Source: Streptomyces showdoensis (GTDB taxonomy: Bacteria; Actinomycetota; Actinomycetes; Streptomycetales; Streptomycetaceae). From it: a DNA stretch of 64,000 nt. How positions within the stretch are numbered: position 1 is the stretch's first letter; each line of letters opens with the position of its first letter. Under the pieces are notes generated by a model. That model ran no database searches. It was not told where the DNA came from and saw only the letters and a program-made list of their open reading frames with translations. Location: contig NZ_BAAAXG010000026.1 in the NCBI RefSeq assembly GCF_039535475.1, positions 2,971,501 to 3,035,500 on the forward strand, read 5' to 3'. Below are positions 23,828 through 38,852 of this stretch, one piece after another. The position numbers and the translations under genes are program-made.

Positions 23828-24295
23828 GTGACTCAGACCGCCGACGAAAGCCTGCTTGTGACCGCCACGGACCGCTCCATCGAGCTCGTCACCCTCGCCG
23901 CCCAGGCGGCGGCCGACCGACTCGCGCACGACATCATCGCTTACGACGTCAGCGATGTGCTGTCGATCACCGACGCCTTCCTGCTCGCCTCCGCCCCCAA
24001 CGACCGCCAGGTCAAGTCGATCGTCGACGAGATCGAGGAGCGCCTGAACAAGGAGCTCGGCGCCAAGCCGGTGCGCCGGGAGGGCGACCGCGACGCCCGC
24101 TGGATCCTCCTCGACTACGTCGACATCGTCGTCCACGTCCAGCACAGCGAGGAGCGTGTCTTCTACGCCCTCGAGCGGCTGTGGAAGGACTGCCCCGAGA
24201 TCGCGCTCCCCGAGGACGCCGTGCAGACCCGCGGCAAGGCCGAGGAGCACGCCCGTCTCATGGGCACCGACGGGGCGGACGGTGAGCTGAGCTGA
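23828..24295 (+). CDS. rsfS: Ribosome silencing factor
   Basis: RsfS binds ribosomal protein L14 and prevents subunit joining when nutrients are low. The 155-residue protein contains AHDIIAYDVSDVLSITDAF, APNDRQVKSIVDEIEE, GDRDARWILLDYVDIVVHV and the YALERLWKD end typical of the YbeB/Iojap family. The first GTG (23828) is given; GTG at 23858 is an alternative that trims ten residues. The last codons overlap the start of the phosphatase gene. Confidence 0.93.
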   Translation: MTQTADESLLVTATDRSIELVTLAAQAAADRLAHDIIAYDVSDVLSITDAFLLASAPNDRQVKSIVDEIEERLNKELGAKPVRREGDRDARWILLDYVDIVVHVQHSEERVFYALERLWKDCPEIALPEDAVQTRGKAEEHARLMGTDGADGELS

Positions 24296-24945
24296 CCGGC
24301 GGCAAGGGCGGCACGGGCCGCCGCATCGTCCTGTGGCGGCACGGCCAGACCTCCTGGAACCTGGAGCGCCGCTTCCAGGGGTCCACGGACATCGAGCTGA
24401 CCGAGACCGGCGTCGCCCAGGCGCGTCGGGCCGCCCGGCTGCTCGCCGCCCTGGAGCCCGACGCCATCGTCGCCTCCGACCTGAAGCGGGCGGCGGCCAC
24501 GGCCGCCGAGCTCTCCGCGATCACGGGTCATGTGGTCGCCCATGACTCCGCCCTGCGGGAGACCTACGCGGGGGAGTGGCAGGGGCTGACCCACGACGAG
24601 ATCACCTCGCGCTACGGCGAGCAGTACGCCGCCTGGAAGCGGGGCGAACCGGTGCGCCGCGGTGGCGGCGAGCTGGAGACCGAGGTGGCCGACCGGGCCG
24701 CCCCGGTGGTCCTGGAGCACGCCGATAAGCTGCCCGAGGACGGCACGCTCGTCGTGGTCAGCCACGGCGGCACCATCCGCACCACCATCGGCCGGCTGCT
24801 CGGTCTGGAGGCCCAGCACTGGGAGAGCCTTGGCGGGCTCTCGAACTGCTGCTGGTCCGTCCTCGGCGAGGGCGCGCGGGGCTGGCGCCTCATGGAGCAC
24901 AACGCCGGCACGCTGCCCGAGCCCGTGCTCGGCGACGACGACTGA
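24292..24945 (+). CDS. Histidine phosphatase (phosphoglycerate mutase-like; possible glucosyl-3-phosphoglycerate phosphatase), CTG start
   Basis: The frame is closed by a TGA at 24283-24285. The only upstream start compatible with the catalytic motif is CTG 24292-24294, which overlaps the rsfS stop as CTGA with GGTGAG upstream. The first ATG in frame (24532) lies after the active site. The 217-residue product has RRIVLWRHGQTSWN (phospho-accepting His in RHG), RFQGSTDIELTETG, SDLKRAAATA, ETYAGEWQG and VVSHGGTIR (second His). In mycobacteria the gene at this nadD-rsfS position encodes glucosyl-3-phosphoglycerate phosphatase. That function is inferred here only from synteny. Confidence 0.85.
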   Translation: MTGGKGGTGRRIVLWRHGQTSWNLERRFQGSTDIELTETGVAQARRAARLLAALEPDAIVASDLKRAAATAAELSAITGHVVAHDSALRETYAGEWQGLTHDEITSRYGEQYAAWKRGEPVRRGGGELETEVADRAAPVVLEHADKLPEDGTLVVVSHGGTIRTTIGRLLGLEAQHWESLGGLSNCCWSVLGEGARGWRLMEHNAGTLPEPVLGDDD

Positions 24946-24974
24946 GCCCGGCCCGGGCCCCGCAGACCCCGGAT

Positions 24975-25004
24975 TTCACTTTCCGGTAGGTCTCAGGCTA
25001 GAGT
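24975..25004 (+). promoter_or_regulatory. Promoter of first tRNA-Ala gene
   Basis: TTCACT (24975-24980) and TAGAGT (24999-25004) are spaced 18 bases apart and match a vegetative HrdB-type promoter, 36 bases before the tRNA. Confidence 0.55.
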
Positions 25005-25040
25005 TCTTCTTGTTCGCAGCGCAGAGCGCGAAGAACACGA

Positions 25041-25113
25041 GGGGCTATAGCTCAGTTGGTAGAGCACTTGCATGGCATGCAAGGGGTCAGGAGTTCAAAT
25101 CTCCTTAGCTCCA
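25041..25113 (+). tRNA. tRNA-Ala (anticodon GGC)
   Basis: The 73-base cloverleaf has acceptor arm GGGGCTA pairing with TAGCTCC, D-arm GCTCAGTTGGTAGAGC, anticodon stem CTTGC/GCAAG around loop ATGGCAT (anticodon GGC) and TTCAAAT in the T-loop, with discriminator A. CCA is not encoded. It reads GCC, the dominant alanine codon here. An identical copy lies at 29497. Confidence 0.97.
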
Positions 25114-25120
25114 CAATCCT

Positions 25121-25152
25121 CGAATCCCGTCCCCACAAGGGGGCGGGATTCG
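25121..25152 (+). terminator. Terminator of first tRNA-Ala gene
   Basis: A 14-bp stem (25121-25134 with 25139-25152, one G-T wobble) closes loop ACAA, eight bases past the tRNA and followed by TCGTTT. The next 90 bases before the stop of the regulator gene hold CCGGCG-type simple repeats and no gene. Confidence 0.8.
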
Positions 25153-25244
25153 TCGTTTCCCGCCCCTCGTCGGATTCCGCCGGCCTTCCCGCGGATTCCG
25201 CCGGCTCCGCCGGACGCCATCGGCCTCCTGCGGCCTCCGCCGGG

Positions 25245-26105
25245 TCAGGCGCCTTCGCACAGCGCGCCGATGGCGCGACGGCTCGCCTCGTCGTTCGGCG
25301 TGTAGGTGACGATCCGGCACCCCGGCATCCCGTTGATGGAGAGCGACACCGAGGTCATCCGTATCTCGCCCACCGCCTGGTGCCGGAAGCTCTTCACCCG
25401 GGTGCCCGGCGGCAGGACGTCGCCGCTGCGCCACAGCTCCGCGAAGTACGGGCTGGCCTCCGACAGGCACCGGACGAGCTCCTCCCAGGCGGGCTCGCCG
25501 ACATGGCGCCCGTACGAACCCCGCAGCTGGGCCACCATCAGGGGCAGCTCCAGCCGCTTGTCGACCAGGGGGCACTCCAGGTCGGGCATCGTGAACAGGC
25601 TCCACAGCACGTTCCGTATCCCGCCGGGGCCGGGCTCCCGGGTGAGTGCCTCGACGTCGAACAGCAGGTCGTACGTCGTGTTCGTCGCCAGCACGTCGTA
25701 CCGCGCGTTGTAGACGACCGCGGGCTGGGGCGCCAGGGCGTCCAGGACGCCCTGGATCTCCGGGCTGACGCCCGCCGCGTCCTCGGTGGCCGTCTCCGGC
25801 TCGTACGGCACCTCCGCCAGGTGGTAGAGGTGCTCGCGCTCGGGCCGGTCCAGGCGCAGGGTGCGGGCCACCGCGTCGAGGACCTGGGCCGAGGCGTTGA
25901 TCGGACGGCCCTGCTCCAACCACGTGTACCAGGTCACGCCCACGCCCGAGAGCTGGGCCACCTCCTCCCGGCGCAGGCCCGGCGTGCGCCGCCGCAGGCC
26001 GGGGGCCATGCCCACGTCCTCCGGTGTCACCCGCGCCCGGCGGGCGCGCAGGAAGGCGGCCAGCTCCGGTCTGCGGCGCTGTTGGATCGCTGCCAACGTC
26101 GTCAC
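25245..26105 (-). CDS. MmyB-type XRE-family transcriptional regulator
   Basis: The 286-residue protein starts at GTG 26103-26105. The N-terminal helix-turn-helix (about 35-85) reads TPGLRREEVAQLSGVGVTWYTWLEQGR, the signature of the streptomycete MmyB-like group. The C-terminal domain (about 100-280) is the MmyB ligand-binding PAS-like fold, with AVVYNARYDVLATN, LFTMPDL and a Leu/Trp-rich core. Some members bind fatty acids. It is divergent from an MFS exporter with about 100 bases between them, so the exporter is its most likely target. No clear operator palindrome is visible in the gap. Confidence 0.88.
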   Translation of the reverse strand: MTTLAAIQQRRRPELAAFLRARRARVTPEDVGMAPGLRRRTPGLRREEVAQLSGVGVTWYTWLEQGRPINASAQVLDAVARTLRLDRPEREHLYHLAEVPYEPETATEDAAGVSPEIQGVLDALAPQPAVVYNARYDVLATNTTYDLLFDVEALTREPGPGGIRNVLWSLFTMPDLECPLVDKRLELPLMVAQLRGSYGRHVGEPAWEELVRCLSEASPYFAELWRSGDVLPPGTRVKSFRHQAVGEIRMTSVSLSINGMPGCRIVTYTPNDEASRRAIGALCEGA

Positions 26106-26206
26106 ACCCCCATGGTCGAGTCCCCGTGCCGCCGTTGCCAGGTGCTGCCGGTACCAGCATCGGCGGGCTCTCGTCACCCGTATCGGACCGGCGTCACGCT
26201 GCTCGT

Positions 26207-27640
26207 ATGACGACGACCACAACACGTCCCGTACTCAGTAAAGACGGTGGCACCGACAATCGTCGCGGTCCGCTGCTCGCCGTCGTGCTCGCCGCCCAGT
26301 TCATGGCGCTCCTCGACGTCTTCATCGTCAACGTCGCCGCCCCCACCATCCGCCTCGAACTCGCCGCCTCCGGCGCCGGAATCCAGCTGGTCGTCGCCGG
26401 ATACGCCATCGCCTACGCCGTGTTGCTCATCACCGGGGCCCGCCTCGGCGACCTGGCGGGCCACCGGCGCATGTACCTCGTGGGCCTCGCCCTCTTCACC
26501 GCCGCCTCGCTCGCCTGCGGACTGGCCGCCGGCACCGGGCAGTTGATCGCCTTCAGGATCGCCCAGGGCGCGGGATCGGCGCTCATGATCCCGCAGGTGC
26601 TCAGCCTCATCCAGCGCAACTTCACCGGGGAGGCCCGGGTCCGGGCGCTCGGCGCCTACGCGGCCGTCCTCGCCACCGGCGCCGCGGCCGGCCAGGTCGC
26701 CGGCGGCCTCCTGGTCAGCGCCGACCTGTTCGGCACCGGCTGGCGGCCGGTCTTCCTGGTCAACGTGCCCATCGGGCTGGCCCTGCTCCTCCTCGGCGCC
26801 AAGGTGCTGCCCCGCGACGCGCGCACCGCGCCCGGGCGGGCCCGCTCCCTCGACCTGCCGGGGCTGCTCCTGCTGGCCGCCACCGTGTCCCTGCTCACCG
26901 TCCCGCTCGTCCTGGGCCAGGAGGCGGACTGGCCGCTGTGGACCTGGCTCTCGCTGGGCGGCTCCGCGCTCTTCCTGGCCGCCTTCGGGGCGTACGAGGC
27001 CCGGCTGGCCCGGCGCGGCGGCGCCCCGCTCATCGCCCCCCGGGTCCTGCGGATCCCGGGCATCGGGCGGGCCGCGCTGCGGATCGCCGCGGTCATGGCC
27101 GTCAACGCGGGCTTCCTGTTCACCCTCACCCTGCACCTGCAGGGCGCGCTCGGGCACAGCGCCCTGCGGGCCGGGCTCACCTTCGCGCCGACCGCCGCCG
27201 TCTTCGGCCTCGTGGGCCTCACCTGGCGGCGCTGGCCGGCCGCCTGGCAGCGCTTCCTCGTCCCGTGCGGCTTCCTGCTGACGGCCGTCGCCGCGCTCGC
27301 CGTCGGCGGCGTCCTGGCGGACGGCGGCGACGGCGGCCGGGAGCTCTACCCGGTGCTGTGCGCGATGGGCGCCGGGCTCGCGCTGGCCTTCAGCCCGGCC
27401 CTGACCGGCGCGCTCGCGACCGTACGGCCCGAGGACGCGGCCGACGCCAGCGGGCTGCTCGCCACCGTCACCCAGCTCGGGCAGCTGATCGGGGTCGCCG
27501 CCTTCGGCAGCCTCTACTTCGGCGGGATCACCGCACCGGGGGCGCGCGCGTCGGCGGACGCGCTCTGGTTGTGCGCCGTCGCGCTGGCCGCGACGGCGAT
27601 CACGGGCGCCGCCACCGGTCTCGTCCGCAGACGGCGCTGA
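26207..27640 (+). CDS. MFS multidrug-type exporter (DHA2 family)
   Basis: The 477-residue protein starts MTTTTTRPV at ATG 26207; no good ribosome site is seen. It has 14 predicted membrane helices. QFMALLDVFIVNVAAPTI is the DHA2 helix-1 signature (D-x-x-x-V-N-V-A), GARLGDLAGHRRMYLVG is the loop 2-3 motif, and GAAAGQVAGGLL is the antiporter motif C region. It likely exports a drug-like compound with the proton gradient. Divergent pairing with the MmyB-type regulator is a common resistance-module layout. It lies between two identical tRNA genes, so it may be an accessory insertion. Confidence 0.88.
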   Translation: MTTTTTRPVLSKDGGTDNRRGPLLAVVLAAQFMALLDVFIVNVAAPTIRLELAASGAGIQLVVAGYAIAYAVLLITGARLGDLAGHRRMYLVGLALFTAASLACGLAAGTGQLIAFRIAQGAGSALMIPQVLSLIQRNFTGEARVRALGAYAAVLATGAAAGQVAGGLLVSADLFGTGWRPVFLVNVPIGLALLLLGAKVLPRDARTAPGRARSLDLPGLLLLAATVSLLTVPLVLGQEADWPLWTWLSLGGSALFLAAFGAYEARLARRGGAPLIAPRVLRIPGIGRAALRIAAVMAVNAGFLFTLTLHLQGALGHSALRAGLTFAPTAAVFGLVGLTWRRWPAAWQRFLVPCGFLLTAVAALAVGGVLADGGDGGRELYPVLCAMGAGLALAFSPALTGALATVRPEDAADASGLLATVTQLGQLIGVAAFGSLYFGGITAPGARASADALWLCAVALAATAITGAATGLVRRRR

Positions 27641-27709
27641 CCACCTTGCGGGGCCATGGCAGAATCGGACCGCCGGAGGGGACGTGGGTCCGGGCGGGAG
27701 GGAGCGCGC

Positions 27710-27802
27710 ATGGCCGTGGACGGTGCCGAGGTGACCGAAGCCGATGCCGTCGCGGAACCAGCCGCGCCCCGTGCGTGTACGTCCCGCCGCGACCGGAGCT
27801 GA
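27710..27802 (+). CDS. Candidate 30-residue leader ORF before the CxxC protein
   Basis: An ATG at 27710 with GGAGGGA seven bases upstream opens 30 codons that end at TGA 27800-27802, three bases before the next ATG. The predicted peptide (MAVDGAEVTEADAVAEPAAP...) is Ala/Glu-rich and then Arg-rich. The strong ribosome site and near contact with the next gene suggest translational coupling. No similarity is recognised, so it may only serve to bring ribosomes to the downstream gene. Confidence 0.4.
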   Translation: MAVDGAEVTEADAVAEPAAPRACTSRRDRS

Positions 27803-27805
27803 CCG

Positions 27806-28039
27806 ATGGGTGCACACAGGCGGAAGTGCGACTGGTGCGGCAGCGGCACGCCCATCGTCCGGGACATGGACCCGGTCAATCCCGAGTTCCAGTACTGGTG
27901 CGAGGAATGCGCGCGGGCGCTGATCATAAAAGGCGACCCGATCGAGACCTACCGTGAGCTCGAAGGGGAGCCGATCTACGGCCGGCTCCTCGACGAACAC
28001 TGCACCCTCAAGCGCTTCTACTCCTTCGCGACGGCCTGA
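27806..28039 (+). CDS. Small two-CxxC protein (putative zinc-binding)
   Basis: The 77-residue protein has two Cys pairs, CDWC (8-11) and CEEC (32-35), separated by 20 residues, a treble-clef or zinc-ribbon spacing. PIVRDMDPVNPEFQYWCEE and GDPIETYRELEGEPIYGRLLDE follow. It is a small conserved streptomycete protein of unknown function. GGAG lies eight bases before the ATG. Its last 22 bases overlap the convergent GT87 gene. Confidence 0.82.
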   Translation: MGAHRRKCDWCGSGTPIVRDMDPVNPEFQYWCEECARALIIKGDPIETYRELEGEPIYGRLLDEHCTLKRFYSFATA

Positions 28040-29364
28040 GCCGACGCCCGCGGAGCCCCGTGGGCCGAGGGAGCCGCGGGGGCCTCGTGGGCCTCACGGG
28101 CCGTGGGCGCCGAGGACTCCTCACGGGCCGGGCGCCGACCGCCGGCCGCCCGGCGCCGCAGCGCGATCGCATAACCGGCGAACACCGCCGTGGCCGTCAG
28201 CGGATAGACCGCGGAGAGCAGCATCTGGCCCGCGTTCTGGTCCAGTTCGGGACGGCCCGGGTCGTGCGGCACCCACCAGAGCGCGAACGAGGCGAAGGCC
28301 AGCGCCACCGCTCCCGTCACCGGCCAGAAGCGCGTGGTCCGGTCGTACAGCAGGATCAGCAGCGGCACGCACCACACCCAGTGGTGGGACCAGGAGATCG
28401 GGCTGATCATCAGCGCCGTGAAGGCGGTCACGACCACGGCCACCGCCCTGTCGCCGCGCACCGCCGCCCGGACCGCCAGCACCATCGCCGCGCCGCCCAG
28501 CAGGGCGGCCGCCGCCACCCACCACAGGCCCGGCGCGTCGGTGTGCATCAGCCGGGCCAGGACCCCGCTGATCGACTGGTTGGCGGTCTCCTCGGCGTGA
28601 CCGACCCGGCCCGTCTCGAACAGGGTCTGCGTCCAGAACTTCTTCGAGTCGGCGGGCAGGGCCAGCGCCATCGTGAGCGTCGTCACCAGGAAGACCCCGG
28701 TCGCCGTCAGCGCCGTCCGCAGCCACTGGTTCAGGTTCCGGTCCCGGCGCCACAGCAGCAGTCCCGCGGCGAGCAGCAGGACCACGAAGAGGCCCGGGGT
28801 GAGCTTCACCGCGGTCGCGAGCCCGATGCCCAGCCCGGCCCAGCGGCTGCCCTCGCGCCGGGTGAGGTCCCACAGCACCGCCACCGCGACGAGCAGGTTG
28901 ATCTGCCCGTACCGCAGCGTCGTCCACACCGGCTCGCACCAGACCACGATCGCGGCGACCCACAGGGTCGTGCGCCACAGCTCGGCGCGGGACCCCGCGC
29001 GGGACAGCGCCGGGCGGACCAGCTGGAGCGACAGCTGGACCAGCGCCACCACCAGGAGCAGGTTCCCCGCGGTGGTGAGCGTCCGCATCAGCGGGACGCT
29101 CACGAGCGTCAGCGGCAGGAAGAGCACGGCCGCGAACGGCGGATAGGTCATGGCGAGGTTCGCCGACGTGGCCCGCATCGCGTACAGGTCGCCGCCGGCC
29201 CGCAGCGTCTCGCCCTCGGCCCGGTAGACCATCACGTCGAGCATGTTCACGTGGGCGAGGCGCTGCGCCACCCAGAAGGCCGCGAACGAGAGCAGGCAGA
29301 CGGTGGCGGCGGTGGCCAGGGGCCATCGGCGGGCGGGGGATCGGGCAAGCACGGACTGGGTCAC
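28018..29364 (-). CDS. GT87 polyprenyl-phosphate-mannose-dependent alpha-(1-2) mannosyltransferase-like membrane protein
   Basis: The 448-residue protein starts at GTG 29362-29364, eight bases after a TAGGGT box. It has about 10-11 membrane helices. Early features are LDVMVYRAEGETL (acidic residue after helix 1) and MTYPPFAAVLFLPL, then WTTLRYGQINLLVAVAVL and AVKLTPGLFVVLLL, then SPISWSHHWVWCVPLLI. This matches the GT-C family GT87 (DUF2029). It likely adds mannose or a related sugar to a lipid-linked glycan outside the membrane. The C-terminal 40 residues are Ala/Pro/Arg-rich. It overlaps the convergent CxxC gene by 22 bases. Confidence 0.86.
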   Translation of the reverse strand: MTQSVLARSPARRWPLATAATVCLLSFAAFWVAQRLAHVNMLDVMVYRAEGETLRAGGDLYAMRATSANLAMTYPPFAAVLFLPLTLVSVPLMRTLTTAGNLLLVVALVQLSLQLVRPALSRAGSRAELWRTTLWVAAIVVWCEPVWTTLRYGQINLLVAVAVLWDLTRREGSRWAGLGIGLATAVKLTPGLFVVLLLAAGLLLWRRDRNLNQWLRTALTATGVFLVTTLTMALALPADSKKFWTQTLFETGRVGHAEETANQSISGVLARLMHTDAPGLWWVAAAALLGGAAMVLAVRAAVRGDRAVAVVVTAFTALMISPISWSHHWVWCVPLLILLYDRTTRFWPVTGAVALAFASFALWWVPHDPGRPELDQNAGQMLLSAVYPLTATAVFAGYAIALRRRAAGGRRPAREESSAPTAREAHEAPAAPSAHGAPRASAQAVAKE

Positions 29365-29372
29365 AGGGGGCG

Positions 29373-29378
29373 ACCCTA
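29373..29378 (-). promoter_or_regulatory. Predicted -10 box for GT87 gene
   Basis: Read leftward, TAGGGT lies eight bases before the GTG start with no ribosome site between. Confidence 0.4.
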
Positions 29379-29409
29379 CCCGCAGGGCCCGGACCTGCCG
29401 GGAACCGAT

Positions 29410-29439
29410 TTGGCGATCTGGCGAGGAGCCGGTTAATGT
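29410..29439 (+). promoter_or_regulatory. Promoter of second tRNA-Ala gene
   Basis: TTGGCG (29410-29415) and TAATGT (29434-29439) are 18 bases apart, 57 bases before the tRNA. Confidence 0.45.
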
Positions 29440-29457
29440 TCTGTCTGTCGCCGCGAG

Positions 29458-29475
29458 GGAAACGGAAACGGAAAC
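29458..29475. repeat. Three tandem GGAAAC hexamers
   Basis: GGAAAC occurs three times in direct succession in the 5' leader of the second tRNA-Ala gene. Confidence 0.6.
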
Positions 29476-29496
29476 CGAAGCGGGGATGAACGACAA

Positions 29497-29569
29497 GGGG
29501 CTATAGCTCAGTTGGTAGAGCACTTGCATGGCATGCAAGGGGTCAGGAGTTCAAATCTCCTTAGCTCCA
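29497..29569 (+). tRNA. tRNA-Ala (anticodon GGC), second identical copy
   Basis: All 73 bases match the copy at 25041, including the GGC anticodon and discriminator A. Flanking sequences differ, and each copy has its own promoter and terminator. Confidence 0.97.
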
Positions 29570-29573
29570 CAGA

Positions 29574-29613
29574 AAAGAAGCGGGTCATCCGGATCGGATG
29601 GCCCGCTTTCTTT
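29574..29613 (+). terminator. Terminator of second tRNA-Ala gene
   Basis: AAAGAAGCGGGTCATCC pairs with GGATGGCCCGCTTTCTTT around a five-base loop, ending in a T-rich run. Confidence 0.82.
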
Positions 29614-29665
29614 ATGTGCCGGCCCGCCCCCTGGAACGTCGATGCGGCCCGCGCAGGCGCTGCGG

Positions 29666-29671
29666 TACCCT
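29666..29671 (+). promoter_or_regulatory. Predicted -10 box for leuS leader transcript
   Basis: TACCCT lies six bases before the leader-peptide ATG, so transcription would start at or near that ATG. Confidence 0.5.
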
Positions 29672-29677
29672 GGCGCC

Positions 29678-29716
29678 ATGCGTGCCGTACGCCTTCTGCT
29701 TAGCGAGCCGCGCTGA
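29678..29716 (+). CDS. leuS leader peptide (12 residues, three consecutive Leu codons)
   Basis: The ORF reads MRAVRLLLSEPR then TGA. The leucine codons are CTT CTG CTT. CTT is rare in this G+C-rich genome, which makes the ribosome sensitive to low charged tRNA-Leu. An 11-bp pairing is possible between 29707-29717 (over the peptide's end and stop) and 29747-29757. A smaller hairpin (about 29723-29744) lies inside, and a terminator follows at 29760-29783. This is the layout of ribosome-mediated attenuation. I could not identify an unambiguous antiterminator strand by eye. Confidence 0.7.
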   Translation: MRAVRLLLSEPR

Positions 29717-29759
29717 TCAGTCCCGACGGATGAAGATCCGGTCGGCATCGGCGCGGCGC

Positions 29760-29783
29760 CCCCTCCTGTGCGAGGGGTTTTTT
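29760..29783 (+). terminator. leuS attenuator (intrinsic terminator in leader)
   Basis: CCCCTC and GAGGGG form a 6-bp stem around CTGTGC, followed by six T residues, 56 bases before the leuS ATG. A T-run is unusual among terminators in this window and suggests a true Rho-independent stop that must be bypassed to express leuS. Confidence 0.75.
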
Positions 29784-29839
29784 CGTTTCGTGGCAGTTGC
29801 TGGCAGTGGGCAGAGACGATCGATGGAGCTTCAAGGATC

Positions 29840-32710
29840 ATGACCGAGATCAACACGGCTGCCGAGACGGCGGCCCAGCATCGCTACACGGCGGCCATGG
29901 CCGCCGACATCGAGGCACGCTGGCAGGACGCCTGGGACGCCGAGGGCACCTACGAGGCCCCGAACCCCACCGGTGACCTGGCCGGGGACGCGGCCGTCGT
30001 GGCCCGCCCCAAGAAGTTCATCATGGACATGTTCCCGTACCCCTCCGGCGCGGGCCTCCACGTCGGCCACCCCCTGGGGTACATCGCCACCGACGTCTTC
30101 GCCCGTCACGCGCGCATGACCGGGCACAACGTCCTCCACACCCTGGGCTTCGACGCCTTCGGCCTGCCGGCCGAGCAGTACGCCGTGCAGACCGGCACGC
30201 ACCCGCGCGTGTCGACCGAGGCCAACATGGAGAACATGAAGGTCCAGCTGCGCCGGCTGGGCCTGGGTCACGACAAGCGCCGGTCGTTCGCCACGATCGA
30301 CCCGGAGTACTACCGCTGGACCCAGTGGATCTTCCTGCAGATCTTCAACTCCTGGTACGACACGGACGCCGCGAAGGCCCGCCCGATCGCCGAGCTGGTC
30401 GAGCAGTTCGAGAACGGCACCCGCGAGGTCCCCGGCGGCCGTGACTGGAACGCCCTGAGCGCCGTCGAGCGCGCCGACGTCCTGGGCGAGTACCGCCTGG
30501 CGTACGCCTCCGACGCCCCGGTCAACTGGTGCCCCGGCCTGGGCACCGTGCTGGCCAACGAGGAGGTCACCGCCGACGGCCGTTCCGAGCGCGGCAACTT
30601 CCCCGTCTTCAAGTCCAAGCTGCGCCAGTGGAACATGCGCATCACCGCCTACGCGGACCGCCTGCTGGACGACCTGGACGCGCTGGACTGGCCCGAGGCC
30701 ATCAAGCTGCAGCAGCGCAACTGGATCGGCCGCTCCGAGGGCGCCCGCGTCGACTTCCAGGTCGGCGAGGCCGGTGCCATCACCGTCTTCACCACCCGCC
30801 AGGACACCCTGTTCGGCGCCACCTACATGGTGCTGGCCCCCGAGCACGAGCTGGTCGAGAAGATCGTCCCGGCAGCCTGGCCCGAGGGCACCCACGCCGT
30901 GTGGACCGGCGGCCACGCCACCCCGGCCGAGGCCGTCGACGCCTACCGCAAGCAGGCCGCCTCCAAGTCCGACGTCGAGCGTCAGGCCGAGGCCAAGGAG
31001 AAGACCGGCGTCTTCACCGGCGCGTACGCGACCAACCCGGTCAGCGGCGAGCAGGTCCCCGTCTTCATCGCCGACTACGTCCTGATGGGCTACGGAACCG
31101 GCGCGATCATGGCCGTCCCGGCGCACGACGGCCGCGACTTCGCCTTCGCGCGCGCCTTCGAGCTGCCGATGCGCTGCGTGGTGGAGCCCTCCGACGGCCG
31201 CGGCACCGACCCGGCCACGTGGGACGACGCCTTCTCCTCCTACGAGGCGAAGCTGGTCAACTCCTCCAACGAGGACGTGGCGCTGGACGGCCTGGGCGTC
31301 GTCGAGGCCAAGGAGCGGATCACCGCCTGGCTGGCCGACCGCGGCATCGGCGAGGGCACCGTCAACTTCCGCCTGCGCGACTGGCTGTTCAGCCGCCAGC
31401 GCTACTGGGGCGAGCCCTTCCCGATCGTCTACGACGAGGACGGCGTCGCCCACGCGCTGCCCGAGTCCATGCTGCCGCTGGAGCTGCCGGAGGTCGAGGA
31501 CTACTCGCCGCGCACCTTCGACCCCGAGGACGCGGACACCCAGCCGGAGACCCCGCTGTCGCGCAACGAGGACTGGGTCCACGTGACCCTGGACCTGGGC
31601 GACGGGGCCGGCCCGAAGAAGTACCGCCGCGAGACCAACACCATGCCCAACTGGGCCGGTTCCTGCTGGTACGAGCTGCGCTACCTGGACCCGCACAACG
31701 ACGAGAAGCTGGTCGACCCGGCCGTCGAGCAGTACTGGATGGGTCCGCGCGAGGGCATGCCCACCGGCGGCGTCGACCTGTACGTCGGCGGTGCCGAGCA
31801 CGCCGTGCTGCACCTGCTGTACGCCCGCTTCTGGTCCAAGATGCTGTTCGACCTGGGCCACGTGTCCTCGGCCGAGCCCTTCCACAAGCTGTACAACCAG
31901 GGCATGATCCAGGCCTTCGTGTACCGGGACGCCCGCGGCATCGCGGTCCCGGCCGCCGAGGTCGAGGAGCGCGACGGCGCGTTCTGGTACGAGGGCGAGA
32001 AGGTCAGCCGCGTCCTGGGCAAGATGGGCAAGTCCCTGAAGAACGCGGTCACCCCGGACGAGATCTGCGTCGAGTACGGTGCCGACACCCTGCGCCTGTA
32101 CGAGATGGCCATGGGCCCCCTGGACGTCTCCCGTCCGTGGGACACCCGCGCCGTGGTCGGCCAGTACCGGCTGCTGCAGCGGCTGTGGCGCAACATCGTC
32201 GACGAGTCGACCGGCGAGGCCACCGTCGTGGACGAGCCCGCCGACGAGGACACCCTGCGCGCCCTGCACAAGGCCATCGACGGTGTCTCGCAGGACATGG
32301 CCGGGATGCGCTTCAACACGGCCATCGCCAAGATCACCGAGCTGAACAACCACCTGACCAAGTCCGGTGGCGCGCTGTCCCGCCCGGTCGCCGAGCAGCT
32401 GGTGCTGCTGGTCGCCCCGCTGGCCCCGCACATCGCCGAGGAGCTGTGGCACCGCCTGGGCCACGGCGACTCGGTCGTCCACCAGGACTTCCCGGTCGCC
32501 GACCCGGCGTACGTCGTCGACGAGACCGTGACCTGCGTCGTGCAGATCAAGGGCAAGGTCAAGGCCCGCCTCGAGGTCTCCCCGTCGATCACCGACGCGG
32601 AGCTGGAGGCCCTGGCGCTGGGCGACGCGCACGTGGTCGCCGCGCTGGGCGGTGCGGAGATCCGCAAGGTGATCGTCCGCGCGCCGAAGCTGGTCAACAT
32701 CGTCGCCTGA
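29840..32710 (+). CDS. leuS: Leucyl-tRNA synthetase
   Basis: The enzyme charges tRNA-Leu in the cytoplasm. The 956-residue class Ia synthetase has the HIGH-equivalent HVGH at 74-77 (in [16 protein letters not shown]), a CP1 editing domain with [19 protein letters not shown] and [14 protein letters not shown], and KMGKS at 728-732. A C-terminal anticodon-binding region ends in [18 protein letters not shown]. Start ATG 29840 has AAGGA just upstream. Leucine codons inside the gene are nearly all CTG, unlike the CTT codons of the leader peptide. Expression is probably set by the attenuator upstream, and a strong terminator follows. Confidence 0.97.
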
Positions 32711-32718
32711 CGCGCGGC

Positions 32719-32774
32719 GTGTGATGCACGGCGTGTGATGCACGGCCTGTGATGCACGGCGCCTGATGCACGGC
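32719..32774. repeat. Four tandem 14-bp repeats after leuS
   Basis: GTGTGATGCACGGC occurs four times in direct succession (units start at 32719, 32733, 32747 and 32761; the last two differ by one or two bases), beginning eight bases past the leuS stop. Confidence 0.9.
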
Positions 32775-32795
32775 GTCCCCTAGGGGGATGCTGGG

Positions 32796-32832
32796 GGCAG
32801 GTTGGGGGTTCCGATGGAACCCCCGGCCTGCC
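32796..32832 (+). terminator. Strong terminator after leuS
   Basis: GGCAGG-TT-GGGGGTTCC pairs with GGAACCCCC-GG-CCTGCC around loop GAT, giving a 17-bp stem (two G-T wobbles), followed by CTTTCCGTTT. Confidence 0.85.
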
Positions 32833-32883
32833 CTTTCCGTTTACCGTGGAAGAACCACAAGCGAAGGCGGAGGGGCGAGGCAC

Positions 32884-33651
32884 ATGGAAGCCGCGATCAC
32901 GATCATGGCGCTGCTCTTCGTCGCCTTCGTGGCGCTGGGGGTCTACGCCACGGTGAAGGTGGCCAAGGCGGCCAAGCGCGGGGTCGACCGCACGATCGAC
33001 CAGGCCCGGCGCACGGTCGAGGACACGACCCTGCGGGCCAAGAGCTTCGGCCAGACCGGCACCGCGGGCGAGCTGGCGCAGCTGCGCCTCTCGCTGCGGA
33101 CCTCGATGCGGGCCACCCAGGACGCGCTGCAGGCGGGCGTCGCCGAGGACGCCTCCCTCAAGGAGTCCCTGGACCTGTTCCAGCGGCTGAGCACGCACGG
33201 GCGCGAGCTGGACGAGGACCTCAAGCGGCTCGAACGGGAGCCGGACAAGGCGCGGGTCCGGGACCAGCTGGGGGAGCTCCGCCGGCGCACGGAGCAGATC
33301 ACCCACTCCGCCGACTCGCTGCGCTGGGCGGCCAGGGACCGGGCCCACCGGTTCGCCGAGGACGAGCTGTCCTCGCTGAGCGCCCAGATCGACATGGAGG
33401 CCGGTGCCCTGCGCCACTGGACGGGCTCCGACACCGGGGCCGCGGGCGGTGGGGCGGCCGGGAGCACGGCGGGCGCGGCCGGGTTCTCGTGGCCCGAGGC
33501 GGGGGCTCCGGCGGCCGCCGCCGAGCAGGGGCGGAGCTGGGCGGGAGCCGAGTCCGCGGCGCCCGGGCGGCCGCAGGCGATCACCGGCCCCGACCCGCTG
33601 CGGACGCCCTATCCGTGGGAGAAGACGAGCCGGCCGGAGACCACCACCTGA
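32884..33651 (+). CDS. Membrane-anchored coiled-coil protein of unknown function
   Basis: The 255-residue protein starts at ATG 32884 with GGAGGGG upstream. One N-terminal membrane helix (ITIMALLFVAFVALGVYATV, about 5-24) is followed by a charged helical region (about 30-175) with heptad-like Leu spacing (LRLSLRTSMRATQDALQAG, KESLDLFQRLSTHGRELDE). An Ala/Gly/Pro-rich tail ends PYPWEKTSRPETTT. It is a conserved streptomycete protein; the shape suggests a membrane-tethered scaffold. No catalytic motif is seen. Confidence 0.82.
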   Translation: MEAAITIMALLFVAFVALGVYATVKVAKAAKRGVDRTIDQARRTVEDTTLRAKSFGQTGTAGELAQLRLSLRTSMRATQDALQAGVAEDASLKESLDLFQRLSTHGRELDEDLKRLEREPDKARVRDQLGELRRRTEQITHSADSLRWAARDRAHRFAEDELSSLSAQIDMEAGALRHWTGSDTGAAGGGAAGSTAGAAGFSWPEAGAPAAAAEQGRSWAGAESAAPGRPQAITGPDPLRTPYPWEKTSRPETTT

Positions 33652-33692
33652 GAGCGGTGGGGGCCGGGCTGCCGTGCCGCGGCCCCTGCGGG

Positions 33693-33698
33693 TAACCT
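33693..33698 (+). promoter_or_regulatory. Predicted -10 box for degV-like gene (leaderless layout)
   Basis: TAACCT lies seven bases before the ATG. Confidence 0.4.
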
Positions 33699-33705
33699 CC
33701 CGCTC

Positions 33706-34551
33706 ATGTCCCGGCATGTCGCGATCGTCACCGATTCCACGGCCTACCTGCCACCCCAGACGATGGAGCGGCACGCCATCACCTCCGTCCCGCTCACCGT
33801 GGTCATCGGCGACCGCGCGCTGGAGGAGGGCACCGAGATCTCCGCCCGTTCCCTCGCCGAGGCGCTGCAGAAGCGCCGTTCGGTGACCACCTCGCGGCCC
33901 GGCCCCGAGGTCTTCGCCGCGGCCTACCGCACGGCCGCCGAGGCGGGGGCCCGCGGCATCGTCTCGCTGCACCTGTCCGCCGAGTTCTCCGGTACCTACG
34001 ACGCCGCCGTGGTGGCCGCCAAGGACGCCCCCGTGCCGGTACGGGTCGTCGACACCCGGATGGTCGGGATGGCGCTCGGCTTCTGCGCCCTGGCCGCGGC
34101 CGAGGTCGCCGACGCGGGCGGCTCGCTCGACGAGGCCGTCGCGGCGGCCGAGAAGCGGGCCGAGGGGACCTCCGCGTTCTTCTACGTCGACACCCTCGAC
34201 TACCTGCGCCGCGGCGGGCGCATCGGGGCGGCGCAGGCGCTGCTCGGATCCGCGCTGGCCGTGAAGCCGCTGCTCGAACTGGACGGCGGGCGGATCGAGC
34301 TGCGCGAGAAGGTGCGCACGGCCTCGAAGGCGATCGCCCGGCTGGAGGAGATCGCCGTCGAGCGGGCCGGCGCCGGACCCGTCGACATCGCCGTCCACCA
34401 CCTCGCCGCCCCCGACCGCGCCGCCGCGCTGGCCGAGCGGCTGCGCGGCAGGCTGCCCGCCATCGAGGACCTGGAGGTCAGCGAGGTGGGCGCGGTGATC
34501 GGCGCACACACCGGGCCGGGCCTGCTCGCGGTGGTCGTCTCTCCACGCTGA
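33706..34551 (+). CDS. DegV family fatty-acid-binding protein
   Basis: The 281-residue protein has the DegV motifs AIVTDSTAYLPP near the start, TSRPGPEVF, HLSAEFSGTYDAA (fatty-acid carboxylate binding) and YVDTLDYLRRGGRIG. DegV/FakB proteins present fatty acids to FakA-type kinases. No kinase partner lies beside it, so the partner must be elsewhere or the role differs. It precedes comEA by 120 bases. Confidence 0.93.
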   Translation: MSRHVAIVTDSTAYLPPQTMERHAITSVPLTVVIGDRALEEGTEISARSLAEALQKRRSVTTSRPGPEVFAAAYRTAAEAGARGIVSLHLSAEFSGTYDAAVVAAKDAPVPVRVVDTRMVGMALGFCALAAAEVADAGGSLDEAVAAAEKRAEGTSAFFYVDTLDYLRRGGRIGAAQALLGSALAVKPLLELDGGRIELREKVRTASKAIARLEEIAVERAGAGPVDIAVHHLAAPDRAAALAERLRGRLPAIEDLEVSEVGAVIGAHTGPGLLAVVVSPR

Positions 34552-34658
34552 CGGTTCCCGCCGCGTCCGGTATCCCCCGTCCGAGTGGCGAGGTTTTCCC
34601 CAACCGGACCGTTTTCCCCGGGAATCGGGGCGTCTCGGCGAGATCCGAGGAATCTGCC

Positions 34659-34664
34659 TACCGT
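34659..34664 (+). promoter_or_regulatory. Predicted -10 box for comEA (leaderless layout)
   Basis: TACCGT lies seven bases before the chosen ATG. Confidence 0.35.
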
Positions 34665-34671
34665 CTCGTCC

Positions 34672-35673
34672 ATGACTCTTCGCACACACATCGCAACGAC
34701 CCGTCGGCGTGCACGCGGCGCCGTGGCCACGAGCGGTCCCGGCCGGCCGCCCGGCTCGGACGGGAGGGCCCGGCGGCGGACCCGGGCGAGGCACGCGGCG
34801 GGGGCTCCGGGAGGGCCTCCGGGAGCGGCTGCGGGAGGGCCTCCGGGAGGGGTACGGCTCCGGGGCGACGCGCTGTTCCCGGCGGCGGAGCCCCCGGCCG
34901 TCCCCACGCCTCCGCCACCACCTCCGCCGCCTCCGCCCCCACCCTCGCCGGCACGGCGACCGGAGCCGCCTCGACGGAGGGAACGGCTGTGGCTCGCGCT
35001 GCGGGAGCGGATGCCCTTGTGGGTCCAGTCCCGGTGCGGGCTCGAACGGCGCTCGCTGGCCGCGCTCGCCGTGGTCCTCGTCGTGGCCGCGGGCGTCGCG
35101 GGCGCGTTCTTCTGGGCGGGGCGGCCCCAGCAGGTCAGGGCGCCCGAGGTGGTGGGCGCGGCCAGGCCGCTGCCCCCGGCGGACGTTTCCCCCGCGGAGC
35201 CGGGGTTCCCGTCGCCCGCGGCCTCGGCCCCGCCGGTGGTCGTCGTGGACGTCGGCGGCAAGGTGCTCCGGCCGGGGGTGCTCACGCTGCCCGCGGGATC
35301 CCGGGTCGCCGACGCCCTGCGTGCGGCGGGCGGGGTCCGGCCGGGTGCGGACGTCACGGGCCTCAACCGGGCCCGGGTCCTCCTGGACGGCGAGCAGGTC
35401 GTGGTCGGGCTGCCGGGGATGGCCGGGACGGCCGGGATGCCCGGCGCGGGCGGGACGGGTGTGGGGGCGGCGGGGCCCGCGCAGCCGCTGAGCCTCAACG
35501 CGGCGACCGCGGAGCAGCTCGACACCCTGCCGGGAGTGGGCCCGGTGCTGGCCCGCCACATCGTGGAGCACCGGATCGAGCACGGCGGCTTCCGGTCGGT
35601 GGCCGAGCTGCGCGAGGTCGACGGGATCGGCGAGCGCCGGTTCGCGGACCTCGAACCGCTGGTGCGGCCATGA
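34672..35673 (+). CDS. comEA: ComEA family DNA-binding protein
   Basis: The 333-residue protein starts at ATG 34672. A long N-terminal low-complexity region (Arg/Gly-rich, then an uninterrupted run of twelve Pro) precedes one membrane helix (LAALAVVLVVAAGVAGAFF, about 125-143). A SLBB-like beta-grasp domain follows (about 175-245, VVVDVGGKVLRPGVLTLPAGSRV). The C-terminal helix-hairpin-helix pair reads SLNAATAEQLDTLPGVGP and ELREVDGIGERRFADLEPL. In transformable bacteria ComEA binds incoming double-stranded DNA outside the membrane. Streptomyces is not known to be naturally competent, so the role is open. It overlaps comEC by four bases. Confidence 0.92.
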   Translation: MTLRTHIATTRRRARGAVATSGPGRPPGSDGRARRRTRARHAAGAPGGPPGAAAGGPPGGVRLRGDALFPAAEPPAVPTPPPPPPPPPPPPSPARRPEPPRRRERLWLALRERMPLWVQSRCGLERRSLAALAVVLVVAAGVAGAFFWAGRPQQVRAPEVVGAARPLPPADVSPAEPGFPSPAASAPPVVVVDVGGKVLRPGVLTLPAGSRVADALRAAGGVRPGADVTGLNRARVLLDGEQVVVGLPGMAGTAGMPGAGGTGVGAAGPAQPLSLNAATAEQLDTLPGVGPVLARHIVEHRIEHGGFRSVAELREVDGIGERRFADLEPLVRP

Positions 35674-38198
35674 GCCCCGCCGTCCCGGCCGGAGGCGGAC
35701 GTCCCGAGGGGCCCGCCGGGTGGGACGAGGGCCCGGCCGATCTGCGGCTCGTGCCGCCTGCGCTGGCCGCGTGGGGCGGGGCGGCCGTCGCCGTGGGCGT
35801 CGTCGGCTGGTGGAGCGTGGCGGGCGTGCTGCTCTGTCTGGCCGGGGCCGCGCTGTTGCTCCGCCCGGCCGCCCGGCGCGGGTTACGGGCGACCGCCTGT
35901 GCCGGGGTGCTGCTCTGCGCCGCCGCCGGGGCCGCGTCCGGCGGGCTGCACGCGGCCGATCTGCGGCGCGGTCCGGTGCCTGGACTCGCCCGGGACGGCG
36001 GCCGGGTGGGGGCGGAGGTGGTCGTCGCCTCCGATCCGCGGCTGACCCGGCCGAGGGCGGGCGGGAGCCGGGCGGCTCCGGTCTCGGTGGTCCTGGAGGG
36101 CGAGGTGGTCCGCGTCGAGGACCGGGACGGCGCGGTGCACCGGACCAGAGCCCCGGTCCTGGTCGTGGTGGTGGCGGGAGACGGGCGCCGGGAGTGGCTG
36201 CGACTGCTGCCGTCGACCCGGCTGCGGGTGACGGGGCGGCTCGCGCTCCCGGCCCGGGCGGGCGACCCCTTCGCCGCGGTGCTGCGGGCGGACGGTGCGG
36301 GACCGCCCCGCGTCACGGGGCCGCCGAGCGGGCTCCAGCGCACCGCCGGGAGCCTGCGGGCAGGGCTGCGGCGGGCGACGGAGGGCCTGCCCCCGGACGC
36401 GCGGGCCCTGCTGCCGGGCCTGGTGGTCGGGGACACCTCCCGGATCGGTCCGGAGCTGGAGGAGGCCTTCGAGGCGACCGACCTCACGCACCTTCTGGCC
36501 GTGTCCGGGTCGAACCTCACGCTCGTGCTGCTCCTCCTCATCGGCCGTCCCGGCAGCGCGCAGCGGAGCGAGCGGGGCGGTCTCGCCCCGAGGCTCGGCA
36601 TCCCGCTGCGGACCACCGCACTGGCCGGGGGCGGTCTCACGCTCGCCTTCGTCGTGGTCTGCCGTCCCGACCCGAGCGTGCTGCGGGCGGCGGCCTGCGG
36701 GCTCGTCACGCTGCTGGCCATCGCGACGGGCCGCCGCCGGTCGCTGATCCCGGCGCTCGCGGCGGCGGTGCTCGTCCTGGTGCTGTACGACCCGTGGCTG
36801 GCCCGCAGTTACGGCTTCCTGTTGTCGGTCCTGGCCACCGGGGCGCTGCTGACGGTGGCCCCACGATGGAGCGAGGCGCTGGCCCGGCGCGGGGTGCCGG
36901 GCCGGGTCGCGGAGGCGCTGGCGGCCACGCTGGCGGCGCAGGCGGTGTGCGCGCCCGTGGTGGCGGTGTTCGCGGCCCGGGTGAGTCTGGTGGCGGTCCC
37001 CGCCAACGTCCTCGCGGAGCCCGCGGTGGCCCCGGCCACGGTGCTCGGGTTCGCCGCCCTGGGGCTCGCGCAGGTGTGGCCGTGGGCCGCCGGGGCCGTG
37101 GCGTGGGCCGCCGGGTGGCCCGCCGGCTGGATCGCGGGGGTGGCCCGTGCCGGGGCGGGGCTGCCGGGGGCGGAGACGGAGTGGCCGGACGGCTGGTGGG
37201 GCGGGCTGCTGCTCGCGCTGCTCTCCGGGATCGTGGTCCTGGCCGCGCGGCGGCTGCCGTACCGGCGGTGGATCGGGGCGGGCTGCGGGGTGCTGCTGTT
37301 CCTGGCGGTGGTGCGGCCGCCGCCGTTGGCCCGGCTGGTGACCGGGTGGCCGCCGTCGGGCTGGGTGTTCGCGATGTGCCAGGTCGGCCAGGGCGACGCG
37401 ACGGTGCTGGCGGCCGGCGGGGACGCGGCCGTCGTGGTGGACGCGGGGCCCGAGCCGGCGCCGGTCGACCGGTGCCTGCGGGACCTCGGGGTGCGCCGGA
37501 TCCCGCTGCTGGTGCTGACCCACTTCCACGCGGACCACGTCGCGGGGCTGCCCGGTGTGCTGCGCGGACGGGCGGTGGGAGCGATCCAGACGACCGGGCT
37601 CGCGGAGCCGCCGGAGCAGGCCGAGTTCGTGCGCCGGACGGCCGCGGCGGCGGGGGTCCCGCTGGTGCCGGCCGGGGCGGGGGAGCGGCGCGTGCTGGGC
37701 CCGCTGGAGTGGCGGGTGCTGTGGCCGGGGGCCGTACCCGGCCGGGCCGGGCACGGGGGGACGGGTTCCGGCGGGGCGGACCCCGGTGGCTCGGATTCCG
37801 GAGGGGCGGAGGGCGGTTCCGGGGCCAACGACGCCAGCGTCACGCTGTTCGTCCGCACCGCGGGAGGGCTGACCCTGCTGCTCCTCGGGGACCTCGAACC
37901 CCCGGCCCAGCGGGGCCTGTTGCGGGCGTATCCGGCGCTGCCGCCCGTCGACGTGCTCAAGGTCGCCCATCACGGGTCCGCCCATCAGGACCTGGGGCTC
38001 ATACGGGCGGTGCGGCCCCGGCTGGCCCTGGTGTCGGCGGGCCGGGACAACCCCTACGGGCACCCCTCGCCGCTGACCCTCGGGGCGCTGCGGGCCGGCG
38101 GGGCCCGGGTGCTGAGCACCGACAGGGACGGGGCGATCGCGGTGACCGGGGCAGGTCCGGCGCTGGTGGCGCACGCGCTCGGGGCCGGGGCGGACTGA
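35670..38198 (+). CDS. comEC: ComEC/Rec2 family DNA translocation channel protein
   Basis: The 842-residue protein overlaps comEA as ATGA. An N-terminal region with several membrane helices and a DUF4131-like external domain precedes the competence core: LLPGLVVGDTSRI, LTHLLAVSGSNLTLVLLLL and SYGFLLSVLATGALL. The C-terminal metallo-beta-lactamase domain (about 565-842) has HFHADH at 618-623, KVAHHGSAHQD and NPYGHPSP. A Gly/Ser-rich insert sits near 695-720. ComEC passes one DNA strand across the membrane in competent species. Codon 72 (35883-35885) is TTA, in frame, so translation should depend on the rare bldA tRNA-Leu(UUA). Confidence 0.93.
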   Translation: MSPAVPAGGGRPEGPAGWDEGPADLRLVPPALAAWGGAAVAVGVVGWWSVAGVLLCLAGAALLLRPAARRGLRATACAGVLLCAAAGAASGGLHAADLRRGPVPGLARDGGRVGAEVVVASDPRLTRPRAGGSRAAPVSVVLEGEVVRVEDRDGAVHRTRAPVLVVVVAGDGRREWLRLLPSTRLRVTGRLALPARAGDPFAAVLRADGAGPPRVTGPPSGLQRTAGSLRAGLRRATEGLPPDARALLPGLVVGDTSRIGPELEEAFEATDLTHLLAVSGSNLTLVLLLLIGRPGSAQRSERGGLAPRLGIPLRTTALAGGGLTLAFVVVCRPDPSVLRAAACGLVTLLAIATGRRRSLIPALAAAVLVLVLYDPWLARSYGFLLSVLATGALLTVAPRWSEALARRGVPGRVAEALAATLAAQAVCAPVVAVFAARVSLVAVPANVLAEPAVAPATVLGFAALGLAQVWPWAAGAVAWAAGWPAGWIAGVARAGAGLPGAETEWPDGWWGGLLLALLSGIVVLAARRLPYRRWIGAGCGVLLFLAVVRPPPLARLVTGWPPSGWVFAMCQVGQGDATVLAAGGDAAVVVDAGPEPAPVDRCLRDLGVRRIPLLVLTHFHADHVAGLPGVLRGRAVGAIQTTGLAEPPEQAEFVRRTAAAAGVPLVPAGAGERRVLGPLEWRVLWPGAVPGRAGHGGTGSGGADPGGSDSGGAEGGSGANDASVTLFVRTAGGLTLLLLGDLEPPAQRGLLRAYPALPPVDVLKVAHHGSAHQDLGLIRAVRPRLALVSAGRDNPYGHPSPLTLGALRAGGARVLSTDRDGAIAVTGAGPALVAHALGAGAD

Positions 38199-38217
38199 GC
38201 ACCATCTAAAGAAACCC

Positions 38218-38246
38218 TTGTAAAGGAATCTTTCTAAAGATATGTT
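38218..38246 (+). promoter_or_regulatory. Promoter with embedded palindromic operator for ArsR-like regulator
   Basis: TTGTAA (38218-38223) and TATGTT (38241-38246) are exactly 17 bases apart; the ATG follows six bases later. ATCTTT-CT-AAAGAT (38228-38241) is a perfect palindrome filling the spacer. TAAAGA/G also occurs at 38207, 38221 and 38235, a 14-base period. The low G+C of this stretch stands out. It is a credible autoregulatory operator. Confidence 0.7.
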
Positions 38247-38252
38247 TCCATC

Positions 38253-38849: not shown

Positions 38850-38852
38850 GCG

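Follow-up and report, generated by a model that had tools for sequence, protein, structure and literature searches.

The leuS gene in the window (the whole 64,000-nucleotide stretch of Streptomyces showdoensis DNA analysed here) is preceded by a very short open reading frame, leuL, with three consecutive leucine codons, by a stem that straddles its stop codon and by an intrinsic terminator. The initial annotation of this DNA had described the region as a complete-looking leucine attenuator. The question is whether the leader senses leucine and, if it does, by which RNA structure a stalled ribosome could act on the terminator. The features that bear on it are as follows.

29497-29570: tRNA-Ala gene upstream of the leader
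29577-29609: terminator-like repeat between the tRNA-Ala gene and the leader
29666-29671, plus strand: -10 box (TACCCT) of the leader promoter, read from the sequence; it ends 6 nt before the ATG
29678-29716, plus strand: leader reading frame leuL, 12 codons, MRAVRLLLSEPR, with ATG at 29678-29680 and TGA at 29714-29716
29693-29701, plus strand: putative regulatory leucine codons CTT CTG CTT, read from the sequence
29707-29717, plus strand: arm 2, the 5' arm of the stop-straddling stem, by RNA folding; it begins 5 nt past the last leucine codon
29747-29757, plus strand: arm 3, the 3' arm of the same stem, by RNA folding; the terminator stem lies 2 nt further on
29760-29783, plus strand: intrinsic terminator, by folding; a 6-bp GC-rich hairpin (29760-29765 with 29772-29777), then six T residues (29778-29783)
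29840-32710, plus strand: leuS, leucyl-tRNA synthetase of 956 aa (TIGR00396), the gene that the leader would control

Anatomy and published record of the leader

When the leader was folded, the 11-bp stem 29707-29717:29747-29757, covering the last codons and the stop codon of leuL, was returned exactly as the initial annotation had paired it. The -10 box, the 12-codon frame with its CTT CTG CTT run, and the GC stem with its six T residues were likewise found where they had been placed. The leader fold had a z score of -2.19 (7 of 200 shuffles were at least as stable); that of a longer fold, in which the leucine codons paired with RNA beyond the terminator, was -1.06. The position of the -10 box suggests that leuL is leaderless, as had been claimed, and transcription should start at or beside its ATG. 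A leaderless start has RNA-seq support in S. lividans, as described below.

The downstream protein was identified as leucine--tRNA ligase by TIGR00396 (895.5 bits; cutoff 548.4). Its gene uses 72 CTG and 3 CTC codons, with CTT at 0 of 75, and CTT makes up 32 of the 1334 leucine codons (2.4%) in the 27 long, GC3-rich frames of the window; the remark that CTT is rare here while leuS is almost entirely CTG was therefore correct. A search of the 8.5-Mb genome for the pattern of -10 box, ATG and leucine codons, with up to three mismatches allowed, gave one exact match, the leuS leader itself, and one match with three mismatches. Near-uniqueness of the pattern in the genome, together with conservation of the element in the genus, puts the leader beyond chance. 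The tRNA-Ala gene upstream is one of two tRNA-Ala(GGC) genes (25041-25114 and 29497-29570) that lie about 4.5 kb apart and are identical at 72 of 72 compared bases.

No Rfam family reached its gathering score over the leader, and the five matches with E up to 5 between 29000 and 30300 included none to the T-box covariance model. A match to BcKCsr2 was rejected (14.5 bits against a cutoff of 40), and matches to mir-3150 corresponded to the inverted repeat after the upstream tRNA and not to the leader.

The element itself is already known. Seliverstov et al. described in 2005 candidate classical leuS attenuators of S. coelicolor and S. avermitilis, consisting of leader peptide, antiterminator and terminator, and attenuators of both leuS and trpS have been in print since then (PMC1262725). 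An RNA-seq reannotation of S. lividans TK24 lists MRAVRLLLSEPR as leuL2 (SLIV_24828, Table 4) ahead of leuS, leaderless by RNA-seq and followed by a hairpin and a U-run; leaders of alaS, thrS, trpS and leuS stand in the same 2021 table (PMC8079986). A literature search for the peptide string MRAVRLLL returned PMC8079986 as the sole match. The leader of the window is like leuL2 in its 12-residue peptide, its leaderless start, the hairpin with U-run and the leuS gene downstream, and differs from it in nothing at the level of peptide and features, S. lividans being compared through the published table. With the attenuators of PMC1262725 it has in common the reading frame with leucine codons, the hairpins and the terminator; those, however, are termed classical and given an antiterminator, whereas no pairing that competes with the terminator was found here. 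As the element is published, the window itself brings no new kind of system, and the view that attenuation of a synthetase gene is less familiar gives way to these reports. Three points are absent from the portions of PMC1262725 and PMC8079986 available to us, and from the further literature as far as it was covered: that the leader extends outside Streptomyces, that it precedes LeuS of two subfamilies, and that its geometry is free of an antiterminator.

Conservation of the leader and its stem

The leader was detected in 119 of 121 sampled Streptomyces genomes, including that of the window; the raw count was 120, from which the best match in G045 (E 0.0067), short and chance-like, was taken off. 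One genome (G001, 79% complete) gave no LeuS at E <= 1e-10. The sole LeuS detected in G045 belongs to a second subfamily, dealt with below, and no leader is present at that locus (L271). A pattern search that demanded TAnnnT in front of the leader and the leucine codons found it at all 110 Streptomyces loci to which it was applied (L007-L116; 80 are named records). A leader was present at 39 of 40 additional leuS loci (L161-L200) that represent 39 genomes of the family: 36 of the 40 satisfied a strict rule for the leucine run, and three carried variant runs, RLL or LVL (L182, L183, L188). The exception, L179, is a second leuS copy in G213, the first copy of which (L175) has a leader. In 148 of 151 unique elements, drawn from 213 loci, the third leucine codon is the rare CTT; the pattern behind this set called for proline at the penultimate codon and for an arm anchored at the stop, and these two features are therefore there partly by construction. 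The alignment that had been proposed as a check thus found peptide, leucine codons, stem and T-run conserved across Streptomyces. Because these sequences share descent, agreement among close relatives says little about function.

In 62 aligned elements (A2), standard pairs occupied 98.7% of the cells of the stem and terminator helices, compared with 41-55% when the helices were slid; slid controls, here and in the larger set of 167, lean towards the drawn structure. Changes on both sides of a pair were seen in three of the ten stem pairs (C-G to U-A, G-C to A-U and A-U to G-C) and in one of the six terminator pairs. Four of five covariation measures exceeded all 500 shuffles, and the fifth, which counts further pair types, was not extreme (86 of 500). 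In a wider set of 167 unique elements from 268 loci, stem pairs 3 to 8 and 10 had changed on both sides; entry to this set demanded a pairing stem and, no more than 5 nt from its arm, the C-run of a terminator, and it is the pair types and not the percentage that carry weight. Judged by these two-sided changes, the stop-straddling stem is real.

Arm 2 contains the stop codon in 150 of the 167 elements; in 5 the stop codon precedes the arm and in 12 it follows, borderline placements depending on the arm extent chosen. The distance from the last leucine codon to arm 2 was measured on 270 loci (178 unique elements, of which L158 and L318 had no stem) with the arm position left free between 0 and 15 nt. 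It was 5 nt in 137 elements, 4 nt in 20 and 3 nt in 12, that is, 3-5 nt in 169 of the 176 unique elements with a stem; for some of the other seven, another, more distant stem had been picked. Six loci were left out of a 63-locus set, four of them (L305, L309, L315, L333) for a wrong or uncertain leader call and two (L300, L328) because none was called. With a spacing of 3-5 nt, a ribosome waiting on the first leucine codon would have its edge just ahead of arm 2.

Streptomyces elements hardly vary in their terminator loop, CUGUGC (29766-29771), where some drift might be expected of a plain loop. No pairing partner for it survived a permutation test.

Occurrence in other families and ahead of other genes

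In other families of the class, 9 of 20 leuS upstream regions (L221-L240) carried the leader; the remaining 11 had no model match better than E 0.38. A covariance model, R1, was built from 62 elements. At E <= 0.001 it matched 133 of 296 genomes of the class, in 59 of 114 genera; 28 of these 133 belong to the genus of the window, and a minimum of 12 were matched only through a cimA, leuA or leuC leader (G236, G249, G281, G351, G369, G372, G388, G403, G426, G432, G443, G484). Eighty stretches around R1 matches were examined, of which 60 held leuS, one lay at a contig end and 19 had other leaders.

The 60 leuS stretches fall into 24 with the LeuS subfamily of the window (about 62-72% identity) and 36 with a second subfamily (about 37-46%), identities referring to the matched part of a 200-residue N-terminal query. 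A partial protein of the second subfamily (L278) scored best with leuS_bact, TIGR00396 (532.5 bits; cutoff 548.4). In families f9 and f20 a related gene was found upstream at all ten loci examined (L354-L363; seven with first-subfamily and three with second-subfamily leuS), either directly beside leuS or up to about 3.6 kb away. In G232 this upstream neighbour holds a GGDEF domain; as that domain is common, relatedness of the upstream genes does not prove that they are the same gene. Downstream, a DegV gene and its neighbour occur in G232 (second subfamily) as they do in G293 and the window (first subfamily; positions 24000-40000 considered), the comparison in the other two second-subfamily loci of f9 and f20 being limited by contig ends. 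From this gene order, the simplest reading is perhaps that one leuS replaced another in situ behind a retained leader. In G405 leuS genes of the two subfamilies stand apart from each other, and a leader precedes each (L270 and L293; also L364 and L365), which shows that leader and leuS can travel together too.

The 19 other leaders, which account for the weaker R1 matches, comprised eight ahead of cimA, four ahead of ilvB, four ahead of leuA and two ahead of leuC, all assigned by eye, along with L339, of no named type. Representative genes were identified as citramalate synthase (cimA, L329; TIGR00977, 525 bits, cutoff 450), ilvB (L340; TIGR00118, 560 bits, cutoff 538), leuA (L338; PRK03739) and leuC (L336; TIGR00170). 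All eight cimA and all four ilvB leaders have the order seen in leuS leaders: a codon run, 3-5 nt, an arm, a variable loop, the second arm, 0-3 nt and the terminator. In these twelve, 4-5 nt separate the codon run from the arm and 0-2 nt separate the stem from the terminator; the ilvB stems are short (6-10 pairs). We propose here to group them as abutting-stem leaders of branched-chain genes (leuS, ilvB, cimA).

The cimA leaders come from family f17 (L329, L331, L334, L342, L343, L344, L345, L346, at about bases 140-300 of the oriented stretches). They encode isoleucine peptides, for example MPSQVLIIVRRAG with ATT ATC codons, and have a stop-straddling stem and a terminator; citramalate synthase went unmentioned among the literature matches listed for such leaders. 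The LEU element of leuA in actinobacteria, seen by eye at L338, L341, L350 and L351, likewise has its leucine run just before a stem arm; unlike the leuS leader it shows by eye no terminator, and a pseudoknot and pairing of the leucine codons with the Shine-Dalgarno box have been proposed for it (PMC1262725). The two leaders ahead of leuC, MRTVLLLLSGRDETSF and MLIARLLLSGRDES (L332 and L336, at about bases 140-300, oriented), have a stem and by eye no terminator, and resemble the LEU element of leuA.

Ribosome states and a possible control of the terminator

A short reading frame with leucine codons between promoter and gene, and an intrinsic terminator between that frame and the gene, are both present, as in a leader-peptide attenuator. 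The remaining part would be an antiterminator favoured by stalling and excluding the terminator. The leader was folded with a ribosome footprint extending, at the standard value, 12 nt beyond the first A-site base; all folds were thermodynamic. Over the 151 unique elements the mean probability of the terminator hairpin was 0.94-0.985 in five states (no ribosome; ribosome at Leu1, Leu2, Leu3 or stop), and it fell below 0.5 in at most 7 of the 151 in any of them. The folding with and without a ribosome that had been proposed as a check thus favoured the terminator in all states and gave no stall-dependent switch.

Since a Trp attenuator, when folded at full length, likewise comes out in favour of its terminator, nascent RNAs ending before the 3' terminator strand were compared. 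In the 151 leuS elements, the mean pairing of the 5' terminator strand with upstream RNA was 0.01 at Leu1, 0.03 at Leu2, 0.18 at Leu3, 0.34 at the stop codon and 0.18 with no ribosome; the leucine-stalled state is the one that blocks this strand least, not most. A Trp leader of the same genome (L353, MFTQTTQNWWWTAHPAAH), which resembles trpL1 of S. lividans and like the leuS leader has a codon run, a stem after it and a terminator, served as control. For this one sequence the values were 0.78 on the Trp codons, 0.30 at the stop codon and 0.62 with no ribosome. Against this single control, which gave the expected switch, the leuS leaders showed none. The corresponding pairing was 0.04-0.20 at the stall and 0.19-0.26 at the stop in cimA leaders, and 0-0.24 at the stall against 0-0.45 at the stop in ilvB leaders.

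The 151 elements were also scanned for conserved helices of at least five pairs between the terminator and upstream RNA. The best of these, arm 3 with the terminator loop, was rejected, having failed the permutation test and having the wrong sign. As footprint folding, helix scan and permutation test all returned no antiterminator, the leuS switch is, on these models, not classical as drawn. In the initial annotation the antiterminator strand was not resolved by eye; nor was it found by the test that displays one in the Trp leader, and the word complete-looking was the sole overstatement. Its identification of a leucine attenuator stands as the best reading of an element both published and strongly conserved; the classical antiterminator switch did not emerge.

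We consider it probable that the element is a leucine leader-peptide attenuator of leuS in which the stem, once formed, counters the terminator. Against this stand the predicted presence of the terminator hairpin in every ribosome state, the 11 of 20 leuS upstream regions of other families that lack a leader, and an experiment on the ilvB leader of S. coelicolor, of the same geometry, where regulation was unchanged after the regulatory codons had been replaced (Craster et al., cited in PMC1262725). The last result counts against codon sensing in a leader of this design, and the objection stands.

We infer that leuL is translated, that its ribosome can stall, and that control runs in the following direction. 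RNA polymerase would start at or beside the ATG, on which, being leaderless, a ribosome would begin. With charged tRNA-Leu plentiful, the ribosome would pass the leucine codons to the stop codon, cover arm 2 and then leave, and the terminator at 29760-29783 would end most transcripts. With charged tRNA-Leu short, it would wait on the first leucine codons, its leading edge at about 29705-29708, before arm 2; the stem 29707-29717:29747-29757 would fold, read-through would increase and leuS would rise. Stem formation would thus report stalling, because a ribosome on Leu1 frees arm 2 and one on the stop codon covers it.

How the stem might counter the terminator is suggested by distances. Since no competing pairing was found, we suppose that the stem parks the ribosome beside the terminator and does not seize a terminator strand. 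Across the formed stem, 9-14 nt separate the end of the first leucine codon (of a three-leucine run) from the terminator; along open RNA, the path from the stop codon is at least 18 nt (median 43), and below 27 nt in 47 of 167 elements. In E. coli, ribosomes repress the terminator tR2 almost completely when it lies a short way past a stop codon, and they cease to do so at distances above about 27-30 nt (PMC4824070). By analogy with tR2, collapse of the RNA into the stem could convert a distant ribosome into one that blocks the terminator. The 47 elements with a stop-to-terminator path below 27 nt fit poorly unless the threshold differs in these bacteria. The wider proposal, that Actinomycetia possess a design in which the stem, with no competing antiterminator, parks the stalled ribosome so as to block the terminator, that it serves leuS, ilvB and cimA, and that it outlived the exchange of leuS, is tentative, and on balance we doubt it. 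Were the stem to park the ribosome against the terminator, this would be a simpler way of building an attenuator, and it might bear on the puzzling codon-change results in the Streptomyces ilvB leader. The puzzle to be put to the test is a leader of many families that stands before two types of LeuS and looks like an attenuator, with no antiterminator where the Trp leader has one.

Attenuation could instead be constitutive, a fixed fraction of transcripts reaching leuS regardless of leucine, with the leader reading frame loading ribosomes or insulating the promoter. The failure to find an antiterminator would fit this, as would the lack of effect of altered codons in the S. coelicolor ilvB leader (PMC1262725). 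We consider it unlikely, however: elements from many families preserve the leucine codons, the rare CTT and the distance to arm 2, although they differ in where the stop codon falls, in the apical loop and in the sequence of the terminator.

That the attenuator is classical after all, GCGCGG of arm 3 (29751-29756) pairing with the terminator loop CUGUGC and so excluding the terminator, appears quite improbable. This is the best conserved of the competing helices (five pairs in 128 of 151 unique elements) and would account for the near-invariant Streptomyces loop; in nascent folds of the 151 elements with arm 2 covered, its mean probability was 0.38 at Leu3 and 0.28 at the stop codon. However, the fit was no better than with shuffled partners (222 of 300 and 103 of 300 at least as good, over 36 combinations), and the helix is weakened or broken in lineages with other loops. 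For the leader of the window the values were 0.09 (Leu3) and 0.08 (stop) in nascent folds and 0 in the full leader. Its sign is moreover reversed, as it would aid read-through once the ribosome is past the leucine codons.

Finally, it is very improbable that the 12-residue product is a functional micropeptide with incidental RNA features, strongly conserved though it is in Streptomyces, for its conserved Pro-Arg-stop letters are those of the stem arm, and in other families some peptides end in LLLT, LLLS or LLLA and others overrun the arm while the distance from leucine run to stem stays the same.
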